Assembly: GCA_002726235.1 (NCBI GenBank)
Contig: PBSN01000004.1
Coordinates: forward strand, 76,570 to 140,569
Direction of reading: 5' to 3'
DNA: 64,000 nucleotides
Source of the DNA: Nitrospiraceae bacterium
GTDB taxonomy: Bacteria; Nitrospirota; Nitrospiria; Nitrospirales; UBA2166
Shown here: positions 26,172 to 36,092 of the stretch, one piece after another
Layout of the letters: every line of letters begins with the position of its first letter
How positions within the stretch are numbered: position 1 is the first letter of the stretch
Made by a program: the position numbers and the translations under genes
Notes under the pieces: model-generated
Told to the model about the DNA's origin: nothing
The model's database searches: none
Seen by the model: only the letters and a program-made list of their open reading frames with translations

Positions 26172-27401
26172 ATGAGTTCTAAGAGCCATCAGACAACCGA
26201 ACGGGCCAAACTTGGATCACCAGCCATCGACGGCGAATTTTGCAATCTCCCGTTGGTTAAAAAGATGAGCGATGAGATTATGCGCAAGGGCCCGATTGAC
26301 TTTGCGAAGTTCATGGCGATGGCCCTATACGATTCAGCATATGGCTATTATGAGTCGGGTGGCACTCTTGGATGGAAAGGTGATTTTTATACCAGTGAAG
26401 ATCTCCATCCCATTTACGGCGAGATGCTTGGACGGCAGCTGATTGAGGCATCGGAGCTAATTGCCCATAATGGGCCTGTCACAATTGTAGAAATGGGGCC
26501 AGGAAGGGGAACGCTGTGTCGGGACATTCTCACGTTTCTTGGGCGCGAGATCCCCCAAATTCGGTCGAGACTTCGCTATGTGCTGATTGAGCGAAGCGCC
26601 AAGATGCTTGAGCACCAGCGCAATCTGCTGCGGCCTTTCTTGTCGGCGGGTTGGCCAGTATCGTGGTGTAGTGGACTCGCTACCTTCCTTCCGCAAGGAA
26701 TTGAGGGGATTATTTTCTCGAATGAACTTATCGACGCGTTTCCGGTCCACCGCATCATTATTCGCAACGGCCTGCTCAGAGAGTGTTTTGTGTCCTACGA
26801 GCATGACCGATTTGTGGAGTGCGAAGGTGACCCATCCGTTGCGGTTGCGGATTATGTTCGACGTTTCATTTATGAGCAGGGGATTACGCTTGGGGAGGGA
26901 ATGCGCACCGAGGTTAACTTGGACGCTGTTGATTGGATGCAATCAGTTGCTGGGGTGTTGAAGAAGGGTATTGTGATGACGGTTGACTATGGTTATCCTG
27001 CACATGAATTGTACAGTTCTCAACGGTCCCATGGCACCTTGTTGTGCTATGTCCGGCATCGCATTTCAGACAATCCCTATACTGGTGTGGGGCATCAGGA
27101 TATGACTGCTCATGTCAACTTTACTGCGTTGGCGACCGTGGGGCAGGACAGAGGGTTAGATGTGACGGGTTTTACCAATCAGCAAAGTTTTCTTCTTGGA
27201 TTAGGCGTTGCAGAGAAAACCACTGAATCCAATGAGGAATTCATTGCTCGACTGATTCATCCTGAAGGCTTGGGGAGGACACATAAGGTGCTTATTCAGC
27301 ATACTGGAATGCCCCTTCCAGCCCTGTCGGGACTGAAATATCGGCCATTTTTCGATTCGTCTTTATTTGGTGAAGGTGGGGTGCATCATGTTGGTGGGTG
27401 A
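26172..27401 (+). CDS. SAM-dependent methyltransferase, MidA/NDUFAF7 family
   Basis: 409 residues. After a polar leader of ~35 residues comes the family core: KGPIDFAKFMAMALYDSAYGYY, GDFYTSEDLHPIYGEMLGRQL, SAM motif VEMGPGRGTL, the MidA hallmark FSNELIDAFPVH and VDYGYPAHE. In mitochondria NDUFAF7 dimethylates an arginine of the 49-kDa complex I subunit (NuoD equivalent) during assembly. Here the gene overlaps nuoA by 14 nt and heads the nuo cluster, and the target arginine is kept in NuoCD (R243). Complex I methylation is therefore a strong inference. No clear Shine-Dalgarno site or promoter was seen. Confidence 0.9.
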   Translation: MSSKSHQTTERAKLGSPAIDGEFCNLPLVKKMSDEIMRKGPIDFAKFMAMALYDSAYGYYESGGTLGWKGDFYTSEDLHPIYGEMLGRQLIEASELIAHNGPVTIVEMGPGRGTLCRDILTFLGREIPQIRSRLRYVLIERSAKMLEHQRNLLRPFLSAGWPVSWCSGLATFLPQGIEGIIFSNELIDAFPVHRIIIRNGLLRECFVSYEHDRFVECEGDPSVAVADYVRRFIYEQGITLGEGMRTEVNLDAVDWMQSVAGVLKKGIVMTVDYGYPAHELYSSQRSHGTLLCYVRHRISDNPYTGVGHQDMTAHVNFTALATVGQDRGLDVTGFTNQQSFLLGLGVAEKTTESNEEFIARLIHPEGLGRTHKVLIQHTGMPLPALSGLKYRPFFDSSLFGEGGVHHVGG

Positions 27402-27774
27402 AAGCATTCCGGTCAATTACGTACCGATTGCAATTTTTGCCATCATCGCGTTTGTCTTTGGGCTCGTCACGTTGACCGTTGGTCAACTCGTTCGCCCTTC
27501 TCACCCATACCACGCAAAATTAAGCGTGTATGAAAGCGGTGCGACTGTTTTTTCTGATGCACGGGTGAAAATTCCGATGCGCTACTACGTGATCGCAATG
27601 TTGTTTGTGATTTTTGATATCGAAGTGATCTTCTTGTACCCGTGGGCAGTCGTGTATGATACGCTCGGTGTCCTTGGTCTCGTGGAAATGGCTGTTTTTA
27701 TTATGATTTTGCTCGTTGGATATGCGTACGCTTGGAAGAAGGGGGTTTTGGATTGGGACGAACTAGACGGCTGA
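27388..27774 (+). CDS. nuoA: NADH-quinone oxidoreductase subunit A
   Basis: 128 residues with three membrane helices (about 9-31, 66-87, 93-115). Subunit A signatures: [43 protein letters not shown], the conserved charged loop near the quinone channel. The ATG at 27388 follows AAGGTGGGG and lies 14 nt inside the methyltransferase gene; a TTG seven codons earlier is less likely. First of seven nuo genes. Confidence 0.95.
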
Positions 27775-27787
27775 GGAACTCATCATA

Positions 27788-28267
27788 ATGGGATACCTGA
27801 ATCGACAACTTGACGCCAATATCATCACCACAAACATTGATGCGGTCGTTAACTGGGCGAGAAAGTCGTCACTCTGGCCTATGAGCTTTGGGCTTGCGTG
27901 TTGTGCAATCGAGATGATGGCAGCGGTGTCCTCACGTTACGATATGGATCGGTTTGGTGCGGGTGTGTTTCGTGCGTCCCCTCGGCAGGCAGATCTCATG
28001 ATCGTTGCTGGTACCGTTTGTCGGAAGATGGCCCCAGTTATTCGGCGAATTTACGATCAAATGGCTGAGCCACGATATGTCATCTCTATGGGTTCGTGTG
28101 CGACGTCAGGAAACCACTATAACAGTTACAGTGTTGTCCAGGGGGTGGATCAATTCCTTCCGGTCGATGTCTATGTCCCGGGGTGCCCACCGCGGCCGGA
28201 GGCCCTGTTGGATGGCCTTCTCAAGTTACAACAGAAATTGCAGAAAGAACGCGTGCTGGTGAAATAA
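27788..28267 (+). CDS. nuoB: NADH-quinone oxidoreductase subunit B
   Basis: 159 residues. Holds terminal cluster N2: the tandem cysteines in [11 protein letters not shown], a third in MGSCATSGN and the fourth in [13 protein letters not shown] precedes the ATG by about 8 nt. Residues such as YDMDRFGAG and [17 protein letters not shown] are invariant in the family. Sits at the junction of peripheral arm and quinone site, directly against NuoCD. Confidence 0.97.
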
Positions 28268-28269
28268 AC

Positions 28270-30036
28270 ATGCATCCCGTTTGTGAAGCCGTCCAGAAGG
28301 TCTTTCCTGAAGTTGTGCTGGGCGTGAGTGTGGACTACCAGACACCTACGATTGAGGTTCATCGAGATGGCCTTATTTCCGTGGCGACATTTCTCAAGGA
28401 AAATAGTGATTTGGACTTTAACCACATCACCGATATTTGTTCCGTCGATTATCCGGAAGACGATGAGCGGTTCGAGGTCGTATATTTTCTGCATTCGTTG
28501 CCACATCGACAACGGGTAGTTATCAAGACTAAGTTGTTGGAAGCCGACCCTTCTGTCGAATCGGTTACTTCGATATGGCGGGGAGCAAACTTTTTGGAAC
28601 GGGAAGTTTATGACCTCATGGGCATTTGCTTTAAGAACCATCCGGGCCTTCGGCGGATCTTGCTTCCCGAGGATTATGATGAAGGGCACCCACTTAGAAA
28701 AGATTTTCCGACGGAAGGAAAAGGATGGCGTTGTTCATTTGACTTCTTTCCCGACCTTAACGAGCAACCGAGGTCCGAGATTGATCATGATGCGGCGGAA
28801 CACGAACGGCAAGTGTTTGTGCGGTCAAATGGGGAAAGTGGTCATCGTGGGGTATCTGGTGGTCTGCAGCGCGAAGAAGAGTTTTTGCTCAATATGGGGC
28901 CGCAGCATCCGGCGACTCATGGCGTTCTGCGAGTTGTGCTTACGCTTGAGGGAGAGCGAATCGCCAAAGCCACCGTTGATGCGGGGTATCTTCACCGTGG
29001 CGTGGAGAAGTTAGCCGAAGGCCTCACCTACGGCCAGATCATACCGCATACCGACCGATTGGATTACGTCTGTGCTATGGCGAACAATTATGCCTATGTT
29101 CGATCGGTTGAGATGCTTCTTGGATTGGCGGTGCCTGATCGCTCAGAATACATTAGGACGATTGTTGCGGAAATGCAGCGGATTATTGGACATCTTTTTT
29201 GGCTCGGAACTCAGGCTCTTGATATTGGCGCGATGACGGTCTTTTTCTGGACTTTCCGTGAGCGCGAAGAATTGTTGGATATGTTCGAGGTGCTTTGTGG
29301 CGCGCGGCTGACGCTGAACTATTTTCGCGTTGGAGGAGTTGATAGAGACTTCAAACCTGACCTTGTGGCACGATTGTCACGCTTTCTCGATGCGTTCCCA
29401 AGCCATATCGATGAATATGACATCCTGTTGGCAAATAATCGAATTTGGCTTGCTCGAACCAAAGACGTTGCCGTGATTTCCGCGGAAGACGCGATCAATT
29501 TTGGCTTAACCGGTCCGGTGATTCGAGGATCAGGTGTTGCATATGATGTGCGAAAATTCAGTCCGTACGGTGCTTATGGGGATGTTGAGTGGGATGTTCC
29601 GGTCGGAAAGTGCGGTGATACCTATGATCGCTATTGGGTTCGGATGGAGGAGATGAGGCAGTGTTGTCGAATCATCCGACAGTGCCTCGATCGACTTCCG
29701 AATGGTCCAATTATGGCTGATGCGCCCGACATTGTTCCGCCACCTAAGGAAAACGTCATGCGGGATATGCAAAGCCATATTCACCATTTTGTTTTGTTCA
29801 CTCACGGGTTTCATCCTCCGGCCGGTGCTGTCTACTGTCCCACCGAGTCGCCAAAAGGTGAACTCGGATTCTATATTGTCAGTGATGGGAGTGCGCGTCC
29901 ATACCGAATGAAAATTCGATCACCTTCGTTTATCCACTTGGGAGCGCTTGATCACATGTCGAGAGGGTACTTAGTATCAGACCTTGTTACTGTGTTTGGA
30001 ACATATGACGTGGTGATGGGAGAGTGTGATCGCTAG
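28270..30036 (+). CDS. nuoCD: NADH-quinone oxidoreductase fused subunits C and D
   Basis: 588 residues. Residues 1-160 are NuoC (REVYDLMGICFKNHP, LRRILLPEDYDEGHPLRKDFP); a ~40-residue charged linker follows; from 205 on is NuoD (LNMGPQHPATHGVLR, YLHRGVEK, NNRIWLART, SPKGELGFY, ending GECDR). The quinone-site His (in PQHP) is kept. R243 in YLHRG corresponds to the human NDUFS2 arginine that NDUFAF7 methylates. The frame is open from 28183, but that part overlaps nuoB; the ATG at 28270, 2 nt after nuoB, is chosen. Confidence 0.95.
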   Translation: MHPVCEAVQKVFPEVVLGVSVDYQTPTIEVHRDGLISVATFLKENSDLDFNHITDICSVDYPEDDERFEVVYFLHSLPHRQRVVIKTKLLEADPSVESVTSIWRGANFLEREVYDLMGICFKNHPGLRRILLPEDYDEGHPLRKDFPTEGKGWRCSFDFFPDLNEQPRSEIDHDAAEHERQVFVRSNGESGHRGVSGGLQREEEFLLNMGPQHPATHGVLRVVLTLEGERIAKATVDAGYLHRGVEKLAEGLTYGQIIPHTDRLDYVCAMANNYAYVRSVEMLLGLAVPDRSEYIRTIVAEMQRIIGHLFWLGTQALDIGAMTVFFWTFREREELLDMFEVLCGARLTLNYFRVGGVDRDFKPDLVARLSRFLDAFPSHIDEYDILLANNRIWLARTKDVAVISAEDAINFGLTGPVIRGSGVAYDVRKFSPYGAYGDVEWDVPVGKCGDTYDRYWVRMEEMRQCCRIIRQCLDRLPNGPIMADAPDIVPPPKENVMRDMQSHIHHFVLFTHGFHPPAGAVYCPTESPKGELGFYIVSDGSARPYRMKIRSPSFIHLGALDHMSRGYLVSDLVTVFGTYDVVMGECDR

Positions 30037-30048
30037 ACGGATGTTGGT

Positions 30049-31884
30049 ATGTTCTCCGCTGAAGCAAAAAAACAGATTTCCACCATTCTGAAACGTTATC
30101 CGATCAAAGCGTCTGCCCTTCTTCCACTACTGAATCTTGCTCAAGAGGAAGAGGGTTCGGTGTCTGAGGACAGTATGCGTGAGATTGCCAAGTTGCTTGA
30201 TCTCACGCCTCCCAAGGTGTACGAGGTTGCCACCTTTTACACAATGTTGAATCTTAAACCGATTGGCCGGTTCCATCTTCAGGTGTGCAAATCCTTGATG
30301 TGTGCTCTGGGAGGATCGGAGACATTGCTCCAGTGGATTTATAAGGAATTAGGGATTAAACCCGGTGAAACTACGCAAGACGGCATGTTTACCCTGAGCA
30401 CGGTTGAGTGTCTCGCTTCGTGTGGAACGGCACCGATGATGCAGGTGAATAATGATTACTTCGAACGCCTGACACACGAAAAGGTTCGTCAGATTTTTGA
30501 GGATCTTCGGACCGCCGGGAAATGCTTGCTTGCAACTGGACCCTTTCGGTGGCCAGAACCAGTTGGATTAATGACGGCATTTGAGAGAGTCCTGCTGAAG
30601 AATATGGATATGCCAGGCTATTCTGGATCATTGAAGGACTATGAAGGAGCTGGTGGCTATAAGGCTATTCAGGCTGTCCTTGGGAAGATGAAGCCAGGCG
30701 ATCTCATTGATATCGTCAAACGATCTGGTTTGCGTGGGCGCGGAGGAGCAGGGTTTCCAACAGGCGTCAAATGGGGGTTTATTCCGAAAGACTCTCCGGG
30801 ATCGAAATATTTGTGTTGTAACGCTGATGAGAGTGAGCCTGGAACGTTTAAAGACCGCCAGCTTATAGAACGTGATCCTCACCAAATGCTTGAGGGCGTT
30901 ATTCTTGGGTGTTATGCGATAGGGGCAAAGGTCAGCTACATCTATATTCGTGGTGAGTTTATTCTTGGGGCAAAGATTCTGGAGAAGGCGCTTGCCGAGG
31001 CCTACAAAGCAGGATATTTGGGTATGAATATCTTGGGTTCCGGCTTCGATCTTGATGTGTATGTCCATCGAGGGGCGGGAGCCTACATCTGTGGCGAGGA
31101 AACTGCCTTGCTGGAATCTCTTGAAGGTAAGCGAGGAAAACCACGAACCAAACCGCCTTTTCCGGCAATCTCTGGACTGTATGGAAAGCCGACGGTCATT
31201 AATAATGTCGAGACCCTGTCAAACATCCCACATATTGTAAATCGAGGGCCGGAGTGGTTTATGTCCATCGGTTCACCGCCGAAGAGTCCAGGGACAAGGA
31301 TATTTTCTCTCAGTGGGCATATAGCACGGCCTGGAAATTATGAAGTTCCCATGGGGATTACCATACGGGAGATGCTTGAAGACTGTGGGGGAGGAATGCG
31401 AGATGGGAAGAAACTCAAAGCCATTATCCCTGGAGGGGCCTCCGCTGCTTTCCTGACCGAGAAACACCTCGATGCCAAACTAGATTTCGAGGGGATTGCC
31501 AACGCAGAATCAATGCTGGGATCAGGCGCGATCACCTTTATGAATGAAGATACATGTATGGTGTGGGCGGCAGAGCGACTCCTAGAGTTTTTTCACCACG
31601 AATCATGTGGCAAGTGTACTCCATGTCGTGAAGGGAGCATGTGGTTGCTTCAAATCCTTCATCGAATAGAGTCAGGGCAGGGAAGAAATGAAGATCTTGA
31701 TCTTCTGTCAAGGTTATGCGGCAATATTACAGGACAAACCGTTTGTGCCTTTGGCGATGCTGAAATTGCGCCGATTATCAGTACGCTCAAACATTTTCGA
31801 CATGAATATGAGGCGCATATTCGAGATGGACATTGTCCGTATCGCAGTAAACACGTAGCATTGGTCGGTATCGGAACCTCGTAG
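30049..31884 (+). CDS. nuoEF: NADH-quinone oxidoreductase fused subunits E and F
   Basis: 611 residues. Residues 1-155 are NuoE, thioredoxin-like, with the N1a 2Fe-2S cysteines in VCKSLMC and ECLASC. Residues ~170-611 are NuoF: the FMN/NADH loop GRGGAGFPTG, CNADESEPGTFKDR, the ICGEETALLESLEG segment, and N3 4Fe-4S cysteines in ESCGKCTPCREG plus a later GQTVCAFG. Joining E and F in one chain ties the NADH entry module together. No frameshift joins them; the fusion reads straight through. Confidence 0.95.
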   Translation: MFSAEAKKQISTILKRYPIKASALLPLLNLAQEEEGSVSEDSMREIAKLLDLTPPKVYEVATFYTMLNLKPIGRFHLQVCKSLMCALGGSETLLQWIYKELGIKPGETTQDGMFTLSTVECLASCGTAPMMQVNNDYFERLTHEKVRQIFEDLRTAGKCLLATGPFRWPEPVGLMTAFERVLLKNMDMPGYSGSLKDYEGAGGYKAIQAVLGKMKPGDLIDIVKRSGLRGRGGAGFPTGVKWGFIPKDSPGSKYLCCNADESEPGTFKDRQLIERDPHQMLEGVILGCYAIGAKVSYIYIRGEFILGAKILEKALAEAYKAGYLGMNILGSGFDLDVYVHRGAGAYICGEETALLESLEGKRGKPRTKPPFPAISGLYGKPTVINNVETLSNIPHIVNRGPEWFMSIGSPPKSPGTRIFSLSGHIARPGNYEVPMGITIREMLEDCGGGMRDGKKLKAIIPGGASAAFLTEKHLDAKLDFEGIANAESMLGSGAITFMNEDTCMVWAAERLLEFFHHESCGKCTPCREGSMWLLQILHRIESGQGRNEDLDLLSRLCGNITGQTVCAFGDAEIAPIISTLKHFRHEYEAHIRDGHCPYRSKHVALVGIGTS

Positions 31885-31899
31885 GGACTCTAACCCAAT

Positions 31900-34563
31900 A
31901 TGGAACACGTAAAGCTCACAATTGATAATCGCGAAGTCGAAGTTGAGCAGGGTACGCTTGTCATTGAAGCTGCCCGCGAGCTTGGTATCGATATTCCCCA
32001 TTTCTGCTATCACCCTAAGCTTGGGTATGATGCGAATTGCCGGATGTGTCATGTCGAGATCGAGAAAAGTCCAAAACTTCAGGCTTCTTGCAGTGTTCCT
32101 GTCACCGATGGCATGGTTGTTCATACTGATACCGCGCGTGTGAACGAATCACACAAATCTGTGCTTGAATTTATTCTCGCGAATCATCCGCTTGACTGCC
32201 CAGTCTGTGATCAGGGAGGACGTTGTGATCTACAAGATTACTCCCATCGATACACTCCGACGGTCAGCCGTTTTGAAGACGTGAAGCGGGTATTTGATAA
32301 AGAATATTTTGGTCCGGTTATTGAAAAACAGATGAACCGTTGTGTGTCTTGTATGCGCTGTGTGCGGTATTGCGACAATGTCATTGATGCTAAAGCGTTG
32401 GCGTCCACTGGACGTGGGTCGTCGAGTGAGATCAAACACTTCGGATCCCATCAGTTGGATTGTGAATTTTGTGGAGGATGTGTGCAGATCTGTCCCGTTG
32501 GGGCGTTTACCAATCGCGTGTCCATGTTCGATTATCGGCCATGGATGTTGAAACGTACGGACACGACGTGTGGCTATTGCGGCGATGGTTGTCAACTGAC
32601 GTTTCAGACGCGAGATCAGCAATCTGCAGCCAACACCATTATTGAAGTTCAGTCATTCCACGGTACTGGCCGCAATAATGGTGACCTATGTGCTCGGGGT
32701 TATTTTGGATTTGGTTTTGCCAATCACGAAGCGCGCCTCACCCATCCATTGATTAAACGTGACGGCACTCATGTCCAGGTTACTTGGGAAGAGGCATTGG
32801 AGTACGCGGCAGAGAGGCTTGTAGCAATCAAAGAACAACATGGTTCTGATGCGGTCGCTGGTTTGGCATCAGCACGGCTTACGAACGAAGATCTGTATGT
32901 GTTCCAAAAATTCATGCGCATGTCAATTGGGACGAATCAGGTTGATTCTTCCGTTCGCTATGGCCACATTAATGCTGCGATGGCCATGGGGATAGTCCAG
33001 GGGACCACGCGCTGGACGGTCACCTATGAAGATATTGTTAAGGCTCATACGATTTTGCTGTTGGGAACAAAGATCACGGACACGAATCCCATCGTTGGGC
33101 TCAAAGTGAAGGAAGCCGTCAAGAAGGGTGGAGCTCAGTTGATTACCGTTGAGTCGACGGTGCCGGTTATTCAAACCATAAGCAATATTACAAATCTGGC
33201 TTCGCTTCATCTGCAAGCCGATCCCATCGCCTATGGGGCTGTGGTCCAGGGGCTAGTCAATACCGTTCTTGATGATGGGTTGGTTAATGCAGAGATTCAA
33301 ATCCGCTATCCGCAGTACATCGAACGATTGAAGCAAGCTACCACGGCATTGTCTTTGCGCGATTGTGCACAGGTTTCAGGGGTATCTGCTGCTCAGATCA
33401 AAGTAGCAGCCAAGGTGTTTGCCGAATCCCCTAAATGTATTGTGCTTATGGGTCAGGGAGTGCTTCGCTCGCCGGGAGCGTTTGAGACCACTCTTAATGT
33501 CTTTGACCTTCTCCTTCTCACCGGGAAGCTTGACCAAGAAGGATCTGGTTTGGCCGTCCTGACCGAAGAAAATAATGAGCAGGGTGCACTTGAGATGGGG
33601 GTCGTTCCAGAGTATCTTCCTGGGCCTTCCGACCGGATGAGCGACACAGCAAAGCAAGTGATTCAAACACAGTGGGGTGTTGAACCAGCAACTGGCCTTG
33701 GGTTAAGGCTTCCAGAGATTATTGAAGCTGCTCGAGATGGCAGTGTCAAAGCAATGTATATCGTAGGCGAAAACCCAATTGAAAGCTTGCCGCCGTCGGT
33801 CAAGGTTCGAGATGCGCTCAATCATCTGGATCTTCTTATCTGCCACGAATTGTTTATGACTGAAACTGCAAAATGTGCGGATATCATATTCCCTGCGTGC
33901 AGTTATGCCGAAAAAGATGGAACTTTTACCAATTCCGAAGGTGTCGTTCAAAAAGTGTGCCGTGCTTTAGATCCGATCGGTGAGAGTCATCCGGATTGGG
34001 AAATACTCGTTCAGGTCTCGAATTTTATGAACGTTTCGATGGAATATGGGTCAGTAAAAGATGTTCAAGATGAAATCAGCAGGGTTCAATCTTCGGCGCG
34101 AAAGACTGCGAAGCTAGACCGGAAGGTTCTTGATCGGTATATCGAATGTGAAACCTCAAACCCTAGGGTCGATTCTCGATATGTGGTCGAAAAACCCAAG
34201 CCACGCGATGGTCGACCACTAATTCTAACGGTTGGCCAAAGTCTTTTCCATTCCGGTAAAATGTCAACATTTGCCAGTGGGTTAAAGGCAATACAGACTG
34301 TAGGTGCTCTTATGATGCATCCTGATGATGGGGAGAAATATGGTGTGATGGATGGGAGTTTGGTGAAGATGGAGTCCGAGCATGGTGAAGCCGTCATTCC
34401 GGTTAAGTTTAATGAACGATACCCACAGGGGACGGTCTTTTTCCCTGAACATTTTAGTGGAGCTATTGGAGCGGTATTATCAATGACGATTGATTCCACA
34501 ACAAACGCGCCGTATTTTGGTTCCGCTTATGTATCAATCGCACCATCTGTTTCCGGGGCATAA
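31900..34563 (+). CDS. nuoG: NADH-quinone oxidoreductase subunit G
   Basis: 887 residues. N-terminal 2Fe-2S domain (CYHPKLGYDANCRMC, C65-like SC), then the N5 cluster HPLDCPVCDQGGRC with its histidine ligand, N4 (CVSCMRCVRYC ... CEFCGGCVQICP), then a CGYCGDGC...C set that matches the off-path N7 cluster, then a molybdopterin-oxidoreductase-like C-terminal body without evidence of a bound cofactor. Last third contains a molydop-binding-like fold (SLFHSGKMS). Starts 15 nt after nuoEF. Confidence 0.95.
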   Translation: MEHVKLTIDNREVEVEQGTLVIEAARELGIDIPHFCYHPKLGYDANCRMCHVEIEKSPKLQASCSVPVTDGMVVHTDTARVNESHKSVLEFILANHPLDCPVCDQGGRCDLQDYSHRYTPTVSRFEDVKRVFDKEYFGPVIEKQMNRCVSCMRCVRYCDNVIDAKALASTGRGSSSEIKHFGSHQLDCEFCGGCVQICPVGAFTNRVSMFDYRPWMLKRTDTTCGYCGDGCQLTFQTRDQQSAANTIIEVQSFHGTGRNNGDLCARGYFGFGFANHEARLTHPLIKRDGTHVQVTWEEALEYAAERLVAIKEQHGSDAVAGLASARLTNEDLYVFQKFMRMSIGTNQVDSSVRYGHINAAMAMGIVQGTTRWTVTYEDIVKAHTILLLGTKITDTNPIVGLKVKEAVKKGGAQLITVESTVPVIQTISNITNLASLHLQADPIAYGAVVQGLVNTVLDDGLVNAEIQIRYPQYIERLKQATTALSLRDCAQVSGVSAAQIKVAAKVFAESPKCIVLMGQGVLRSPGAFETTLNVFDLLLLTGKLDQEGSGLAVLTEENNEQGALEMGVVPEYLPGPSDRMSDTAKQVIQTQWGVEPATGLGLRLPEIIEAARDGSVKAMYIVGENPIESLPPSVKVRDALNHLDLLICHELFMTETAKCADIIFPACSYAEKDGTFTNSEGVVQKVCRALDPIGESHPDWEILVQVSNFMNVSMEYGSVKDVQDEISRVQSSARKTAKLDRKVLDRYIECETSNPRVDSRYVVEKPKPRDGRPLILTVGQSLFHSGKMSTFASGLKAIQTVGALMMHPDDGEKYGVMDGSLVKMESEHGEAVIPVKFNERYPQGTVFFPEHFSGAIGAVLSMTIDSTTNAPYFGSAYVSIAPSVSGA

Positions 34564-34566
34564 CCA

Positions 34567-35562
34567 ATGGATGTGATAGTCACGCTTGCCATTATTCTCT
34601 TGCAGGTTGCTCTTGTCATGGCCATCATTCTTCTGAATGTGGCCTATCTTACCTACGCAGAGCGAAAGATTCTTGGATTTATGCAGGATCGTCTCGGACC
34701 CATGGAGGTTGGTCCATACGGGTTGCTTCAGCCGATTGCAGACGGCATCAAACTGTTTTTTAAAGAAGACATTATTCCTGCTGGGGCGAACAAAGTTATT
34801 TTTACGCTTGCCCCAATTTTGGCTTTTGTTCCCGCAATGATTGGTTTCGCCGTGGTGCCGTTTGGGGCTGGAGAAAAACCATGGATCATCAGCGATATCA
34901 ACGTTGGCATTCTCTATGTTCTGGCAGTGACGTCGATTGGCGCCTATGGCATTATCCTTGGAGGATGGGCGTCCAATAGCAAATACTCCCTCCTCGGGGG
35001 CTTGCGTGCGGCAGCACAGGTTATTAGCTATGAGTTGAATATTGGACTCGCGATCGTAGGGGTGTTGTTGCTCTCAGGATCGTTAAGTCTGGTGGAAATC
35101 ACTGAAGCTCAAGCGGGTGGATTCTGGCATTGGTACGTTTTCCCTCAGTTCGTTGCCTTTGTGATCTATAGCATTGCTGCGGTTGCCGAAACGAATCGCC
35201 TTCCCTTCGATCTTCCCGAAGCGGAGAGTGAACTAGTTGCCGGGTTTTTCACTGAATACAGCGGGATGCGATTTTCATTTTTCTTTATGGCGGAATACGC
35301 CAACATGATTCTTGTCTCCTGCATTGCCGCCATTCTGTTTCTCGGAGGATACAATGCGCCATTTCCATTTCTGGATTTCGTTCCGCCGGTCATATGGTTT
35401 ACGCTAAAAGTCTACTTCTTCTTGTTTCTTTTCATCTGGATACGCGCAACGGTGCCTCGACTTCGGTACGATCAGTTAATGCGACTTGGGTGGAAGGTTA
35501 TGTTGCCCATCGCATTAGCGAATATTATGCTCACGGCAGTGATTGTGTACGTGGTGGAGTAG
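34567..35562 (+). CDS. nuoH: NADH-quinone oxidoreductase subunit H
   Basis: 331 residues, about eight membrane helices. TYAERKILGFMQDRLGPMEVGPYGLLQPIADGIKLFFKED is the classic subunit-1 opening; AETNRLPFDLPEAESELVAGF and EYSGMRF form the charged quinone-channel loop. It links the peripheral arm to the proton pumps. Four nt after nuoG; its stop overlaps the nuoI start codon by one base. Confidence 0.97.
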   Translation: MDVIVTLAIILLQVALVMAIILLNVAYLTYAERKILGFMQDRLGPMEVGPYGLLQPIADGIKLFFKEDIIPAGANKVIFTLAPILAFVPAMIGFAVVPFGAGEKPWIISDINVGILYVLAVTSIGAYGIILGGWASNSKYSLLGGLRAAAQVISYELNIGLAIVGVLLLSGSLSLVEITEAQAGGFWHWYVFPQFVAFVIYSIAAVAETNRLPFDLPEAESELVAGFFTEYSGMRFSFFFMAEYANMILVSCIAAILFLGGYNAPFPFLDFVPPVIWFTLKVYFFLFLFIWIRATVPRLRYDQLMRLGWKVMLPIALANIMLTAVIVYVVE

Positions 35563-36092
35563 TGAGGGCGTTACTCAAGGCGGTGACATTCCCTGAAATT
35601 TTGATGGGATTGAAGGAAACGTTGAAACATCTGTTCACACCCTCAGTGACTCTTCAGTACCCTCATGTAAAGAGAAGCCTTCCCGGCGGCTATCGCGGTA
35701 TGTTATCGCTGCTTCGCTATAGTGACGGTGGCGAAAAGTGCGTCGGCTGCGATTTGTGTGAGGCTACCTGCCCTTCAAGGGTGATTACGGTGGTCAGTGC
35801 GGAGGTGCAGGGGGAACCTACTAAGCGCTATGCCAAAGAATACTATATGGACATGACGCGTTGCGTATTCTGTGGTCTGTGTGTTGAAGCTTGTCCCGTT
35901 GACGCCTTAGGCATGACTAAGGAATACGAATGGGCAGTGTATGATAAACGTTCACTTCGTCTCAACAAAGAGCAACTTCTTGCTATCGGTGATCGATCCT
36001 TTCCCGAACGTGAACGGCCGGTGCAGGACCAATACCATAACGTAGCAACTTTTAACATTGGCCGACCTCAGCTTCCTCAGAAGCAATACTAA
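35562..36092 (+). CDS. nuoI: NADH-quinone oxidoreductase subunit I
   Basis: 176 residues from a GTG whose first base is the last base of the nuoH stop. Two ferredoxin motifs carry N6a and N6b: CVGCDLCEATCP and CVFCGLCVEACP. The N-terminal amphipathic helices (FPEILMGLKETLKHLF) rest on subunit H. The open frame continues upstream to 35394, but that part is inside nuoH in another frame. It is the last nuo gene here: nuoJ, K, L, M and N are not next to it. Confidence 0.93.
   Translation: MRALLKAVTFPEILMGLKETLKHLFTPSVTLQYPHVKRSLPGGYRGMLSLLRYSDGGEKCVGCDLCEATCPSRVITVVSAEVQGEPTKRYAKEYYMDMTRCVFCGLCVEACPVDALGMTKEYEWAVYDKRSLRLNKEQLLAIGDRSFPERERPVQDQYHNVATFNIGRPQLPQKQY

Follow-up and report, generated by a model that had tools for sequence, protein, structure and literature searches.

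A MidA-family methyltransferase gene at the head of a nuo operon in the order Nitrospirales, with NuoCD Arg243 as its predicted target

Introduction

Does a methyltransferase gene placed at the head of a bacterial nuo operon act on the complex I encoded by that operon, and if so, on which residue? This question is raised by a window of 64,000 nucleotides (the whole stretch of DNA analyzed here, from a Nitrospiraceae bacterium), in which a gene of the MidA/NDUFAF7 type lies directly in front of nuoA. NDUFAF7 is required for the dimethylation of NDUFS2 Arg-85 in human cells (PMC3829151), and replacing the arginine in Yarrowia abolished the N2 cluster (PMC8042128). The arginine is symmetrically dimethylated in cow, human, Pichia, and Paracoccus denitrificans, where the modified residue is Arg-65 of NuoD, while Arg-249 of E. 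coli NuoCD is unmodified and Thermus carries a threonine at this position (Carroll et al. 2013, PMC3750175). The mark has been known in bacteria since 2013, and a proteobacterial origin already appears in the title of a 2018 Cell Rep paper (cited in PMC9006661; title of PDB 5ZTZ). Outside eukaryotes, the measured support that we found for the mark comes from one alphaproteobacterium.

Results

Organization of the midA-nuo locus

The plus strand of the window carries the gene order midA-nuoA-nuoB-nuoCD-nuoEF-nuoG-nuoH-nuoI. The first gene, midA (26172..27401), encodes a 409-aa methyltransferase of the PF02636/COG1565 family and runs into nuoA (27388..27774). With ATG 27388 as the nuoA start, the overlap has the 14 nt (27388..27401) reported by the first-pass annotation; with GTG 27394 it shrinks to 8 nt, and the NuoA N-termini of relatives (MGSEAVPLNY...) agree slightly better with this second start. 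The predicted overlap is accordingly 8-14 nt, depending on the nuoA start. Next come nuoB (27788..28267) and nuoCD (28270..30036, start ATG 28270), whose 588-aa product fuses the C and D subunits and is the proposed substrate. Its Arg243 lies in GYLHRGVEK and corresponds to NDUFS2 Arg-85 in mature numbering; the position and codon first assigned to it (CGT, 28996..28998) were confirmed. The operon continues with nuoEF (30049..31884, 611 aa), in which E and F are fused, these being separate genes in relatives, followed by nuoG (31900..34563), nuoH (34567..35562), and, as its last gene, nuoI, whose open reading frame (35394..36092) probably has its true start near 35562. A gap of about 590 bp separates midA from the end of argB (25580) upstream, and a search of the midA-nuoA junction for terminator-like sites gave none; the transcription unit therefore most likely begins with midA. 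The physical coupling to the presumed substrate operon that had been described thus stands, midA being directly upstream of nuoA.

After nuoI the window operon ends and hemH comes next, while the operons of relatives run on through nuoJKLMN (L305-L308); the examined parts of the genome yielded no nuoJK belonging to this operon. A second nuo operon in the same genomes has the order A-B-C-D-G-I-J-K without adjacent E/F, and no MidA was found beside it in the fetched relatives of the order (L102-L115) and class (L116-L117). In the window's own genome, this second operon, likewise without E/F, apparently goes on with L-M-M-N (2M-like) on contig C3, and a radical-SAM-like gene (L120, contig C27, 6877-8529) sits on the opposite strand between its nuoC and nuoD. 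On contig C22 of this genome (L312), a NuoL-like gene adjoins a DabA-like gene, which suggests a dissolved inorganic carbon transporter.

Family, fold, and phylogeny of MidA

Positions 1-249 of the window MidA match PF02636 with an E-value of 3.3e-61 (206.5 bits, cut-off 23.3), and this is the sole match to the family in its genome (1.87 Mb, 90.65% complete); no NCBIfam model matched the protein. The nearest solved structures by sequence were the Burkholderia COG1565 protein 4F3N (E 5e-42), R. palustris 1ZKD, and Dictyostelium MidA 5ZTZ. The predicted structure (pLDDT 81) gave Z-scores of 38.4 with 4G67, 37.5 with 5ZTZ (362 residues), and 36.0 with 1ZKD, versus 14.9 for the next unrelated fold. 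The Burkholderia protein (4F3N/4G67), to which its depositors assigned no function, is therefore the closest structure by both sequence and fold. When the window MidA was aligned with 20 alphaproteobacterial sequences, E107, G109, P110, G111, R112, and G113 of SAM motif I (E-x-G-P-G-R-G) were invariant in all 21, as were N184, E185, D188, and P191 of an acidic loop (N-E-x-x-D-x-x-P). The motif, EMGPGRG in the window (residues 107-113, 26490..26510 on the plus strand), is identical in Dictyostelium MidA. Profile, fold, and SAM motif all place the protein in PF02636/COG1565, and its first description as a MidA/NDUFAF7-type enzyme heading the nuo operon was borne out.

With human NDUFAF7 and Dictyostelium MidA, the window protein shares the domain, the fold, the motif EMGPGRGTL, and complex I as partner, but identity over the structural alignment is about 21%, and its gene, unlike theirs, lies in the substrate operon and encodes a predicted activity. 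Alphaproteobacterial MidA, including R. palustris 1ZKD, has the same family and fold but is only 26-31% identical (20 sequences). In a 69-row tree, MidA of the window's phylum formed its own 30-row clade (support 100/99), alphaproteobacterial and Dictyostelium MidA formed a separate clade (100/100), and further sequences fell into one clade with the Burkholderia protein and a fourth clade from Pseudomonadota. By this tree, the window MidA lies outside the narrow NDUFAF7 clade (alphaproteobacterial/mitochondrial) and may yet be a vertical orthologue. Given this separate placement, it is a family member with a long history of its own and no close copy of the mitochondrial enzyme.

In most examined genomes of the order, PF02636 also matches another protein weakly, one of about 480-530 aa (e.g., G081:C1:1406038-1406388). 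These copies were rejected as additional MidA proteins, being mostly distant paralogues with weak E-values.

Conservation of the midA-nuoA linkage

Adjacency confined to this genome, which the first-pass annotation had named as a refuting result, was not what we found. Each of the other 55 genomes in the order of the window has a strong MidA, which in 54 of them immediately precedes nuoA on the same strand, so the linkage is not due to chance; within one order it represents a single inherited event. In the remaining genome (G105, L319), nuoA-G are missing at the locus and MidA is followed by nuoH-nuoI-nuoJ: either MidA outlived the neighboring NuoCD or the bin is misassembled. The midA-nuoA gap ranged from -14 to +193 nt in the 39 measurable loci of the order, with an overlap in four; nearness of the two genes is conserved and the overlap is not. 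Linkage was kept while the MidA sequences of the order diverged to about 40-50% identity.

Beyond the order, the same arrangement was found in class families f4, f5, f7, and f9, and in families f8 and f11 MidA lies 4.5-5.3 kb upstream. In f6 and f10, MidA lies elsewhere, with no nuo linkage, and it is likewise elsewhere in the other members of the phylum that were sampled. Among 198 genomes of the phylum, PF02636 was present in 165 and NuoA in 188. Five had MidA and no nuoA match: two of these have a truncated NuoD (G067, where it is at a contig start, and G116), and two are bins 71-81% complete; the fifth, the fragmented G114, is covered by neither explanation.

MidA and complex I in Pseudomonadota

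No nuo gene was found within 10 kb of MidA in 80 named Alphaproteobacteria, the class in which the mark was measured. The context there is lgt-midA-pgeF; in two loci read closely, an lgt-like gene precedes MidA, and pgeF- and prs-like genes follow. A survey of midA-nuoA adjacency across Nitrospirota and Alphaproteobacteria, proposed at the outset, was thus positive in the window's order and four further families of its class and negative in Alphaproteobacteria and in f6 and f10.

Among 249 Pseudomonadota genomes, MidA was detected in 179 and NuoA in 215; nuoA was present in 179/179 genomes with MidA, and MidA in 0/34 genomes lacking nuoA (Fisher p 1e-22, relatedness not corrected for). One of the 179 matches (G429, 4.6e-4) is doubtful and probably a paralogue. 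In 12 of the 101 genomes in which the places of both MidA and nuo genes were listed, MidA directly follows nuoN and so closes a complete nuo operon on its 3' side, usually with a fabI-like (enoyl-reductase-like) gene behind it where downstream genes were readable. As this MidA belongs to a different clade from that of the window's phylum, nuoN-midA is a second, separate linkage at the opposite end of the operon. In the Burkholderia clade, the flanks of five unlinked loci were read; none was beside nuo, and three were beside a cca-like gene.

Twenty Pseudomonadota genomes with nuoA and without MidA were fetched (G429 included). Sixteen have a fused, E. coli-type NuoCD, and three have a canonical NuoA; for one of the latter (G271), the lack of MidA is explained by a contig that ends about 100 bp past nuoN. 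NuoC and NuoD were separate in 30/30 nuo regions compared from genomes with MidA. MidA is thus nested near-strictly within genomes carrying canonical complex I.

The target arginine

The first-pass annotation had also argued from conservation of the target arginine, and this argument did not survive. The residue is invariant in all 93 tabulated NuoD sequences, including E. coli-type complexes without MidA, and is kept in the NuoD fragments of two further MidA-less genomes (G015 and G048). Because it is invariant whether MidA is present or absent, and is unmodified in E. coli, its conservation proves nothing about methylation and was rejected as evidence. The residue two positions before it is Leu (xLHR) in MidA-bearing lineages and His (HHR) in E. 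coli-type complexes, a difference that may be a lineage marker only. HRA replaces HRG at this site in some MidA-bearing Pseudomonadota (L273, L274, L275, L280, L283, and L286).

E. coli shares with the window the arginine and a fused NuoCD but differs in having HHRG instead of LHRG and an unmodified arginine (PMC3750175). A PF02636 search of the E. coli and Thermus composti controls gave no MidA match, and where checked in these controls, the MidA pattern agrees with the distribution of the mark. Likewise, the 16 MidA-less Pseudomonadota with a fused NuoCD carry HHRG in place of LHRG, which agrees with the measured contrast between unmodified Arg-249 in E. coli and dimethylated Arg-65 in Paracoccus.

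Discussion

The gene order and its conservation, the family, fold, and SAM motif of the protein, the presence of the target residue, and the co-occurrence with canonical complex I were observed directly, and we consider it probable that the leading gene codes for a MidA that serves as the complex I methyltransferase and would dimethylate NuoCD Arg243 during assembly. The reaction, residue, and timing are drawn by analogy from human and Dictyostelium NDUFAF7/MidA and from the Paracoccus mark. In the proposed mechanism, MidA would be produced alongside the nuo subunits and would draw on S-adenosylmethionine to symmetrically dimethylate Arg243 of newly made NuoCD, in the HRGxE motif next to cluster N2. 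Dimethylation would take place before or during the joining of NuoB and the membrane arm, and may help assembly and tune N2.

MidA might instead serve complex I by another route, methylating a different residue or subunit or acting mainly as an assembly chaperone. Genomic context indicates complex I and no particular residue, and in G105 MidA adjoins nuoH though nuoA-G, with NuoCD, are missing there. Moreover, because of the low identity to alphaproteobacterial MidA and the separate clade, the substrate of MidA in the window's phylum could differ from the alphaproteobacterial one. We nonetheless regard this route as unlikely: both the SAM motif and the entire fold are preserved, and in human cells this arginine is the site on which the studied family member acts (PMC3829151).

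A further reading gives MidA a broader or different substrate, such as DNA, and leaves its operon position to co-regulation with respiration. According to one report, the Wolbachia protein methylates adenine and cytosine in DNA when it is expressed in E. coli (PMC12455994). However, a general DNA methylase is not expected to track the type of complex I, and MidA of Pseudomonadota occurs only in genomes with complex I, with linkage to nuo found twice, which makes such a substrate quite improbable. The least probable reading in our estimate is a chance neighborhood, fixed once in an ancestor and passively kept. Vertical inheritance of the linkage within the order would fit it, as would f6, f10, and most of the remaining phylum being without linkage, but retention in 54/55 genomes despite the divergence of MidA, on the same strand and with short gaps, argues against passive maintenance, as does the separate nuoN-midA linkage of Pseudomonadota, at the opposite end. 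Dimethylation of NuoCD by MidA therefore remains our preferred reading.

The first-pass annotation further suggested that arginine methylation of complex I is a bacterial trait. The recurrent linkage supports this idea, which has prior art (Carroll 2013; Cell Rep 2018). No nuo-linked MidA was found in the searchable open papers. Against the papers searched, three things are new: a conserved operon that joins midA to nuoA in a second phylum, the placement of midA behind nuoN, and the near-strict confinement of MidA to genomes with canonical complex I. We put forward, at slightly less than even odds, that canonical bacterial complex I ancestrally had its HRG arginine dimethylated by MidA, before the window's phylum and Pseudomonadota split. 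MidA would then be a near-obligate partner gene that twice joined the nuo genes in one operon and disappeared where the E. coli type took over.

The operon linkage supports the published idea that this methylation is an ancient trait of bacteria, and it opens a new phylum to an easy test of that idea. Together, the linkages and the nesting give a simple rule, that the mark is to be expected where MidA is present, and indicate organisms for testing; among these, the methylation state of the MidA-bearing Pseudomonadota with HRA bears on the sequence requirement. They also give a reason for the missing modification in E. coli, the bacterium in which complex I is usually studied.
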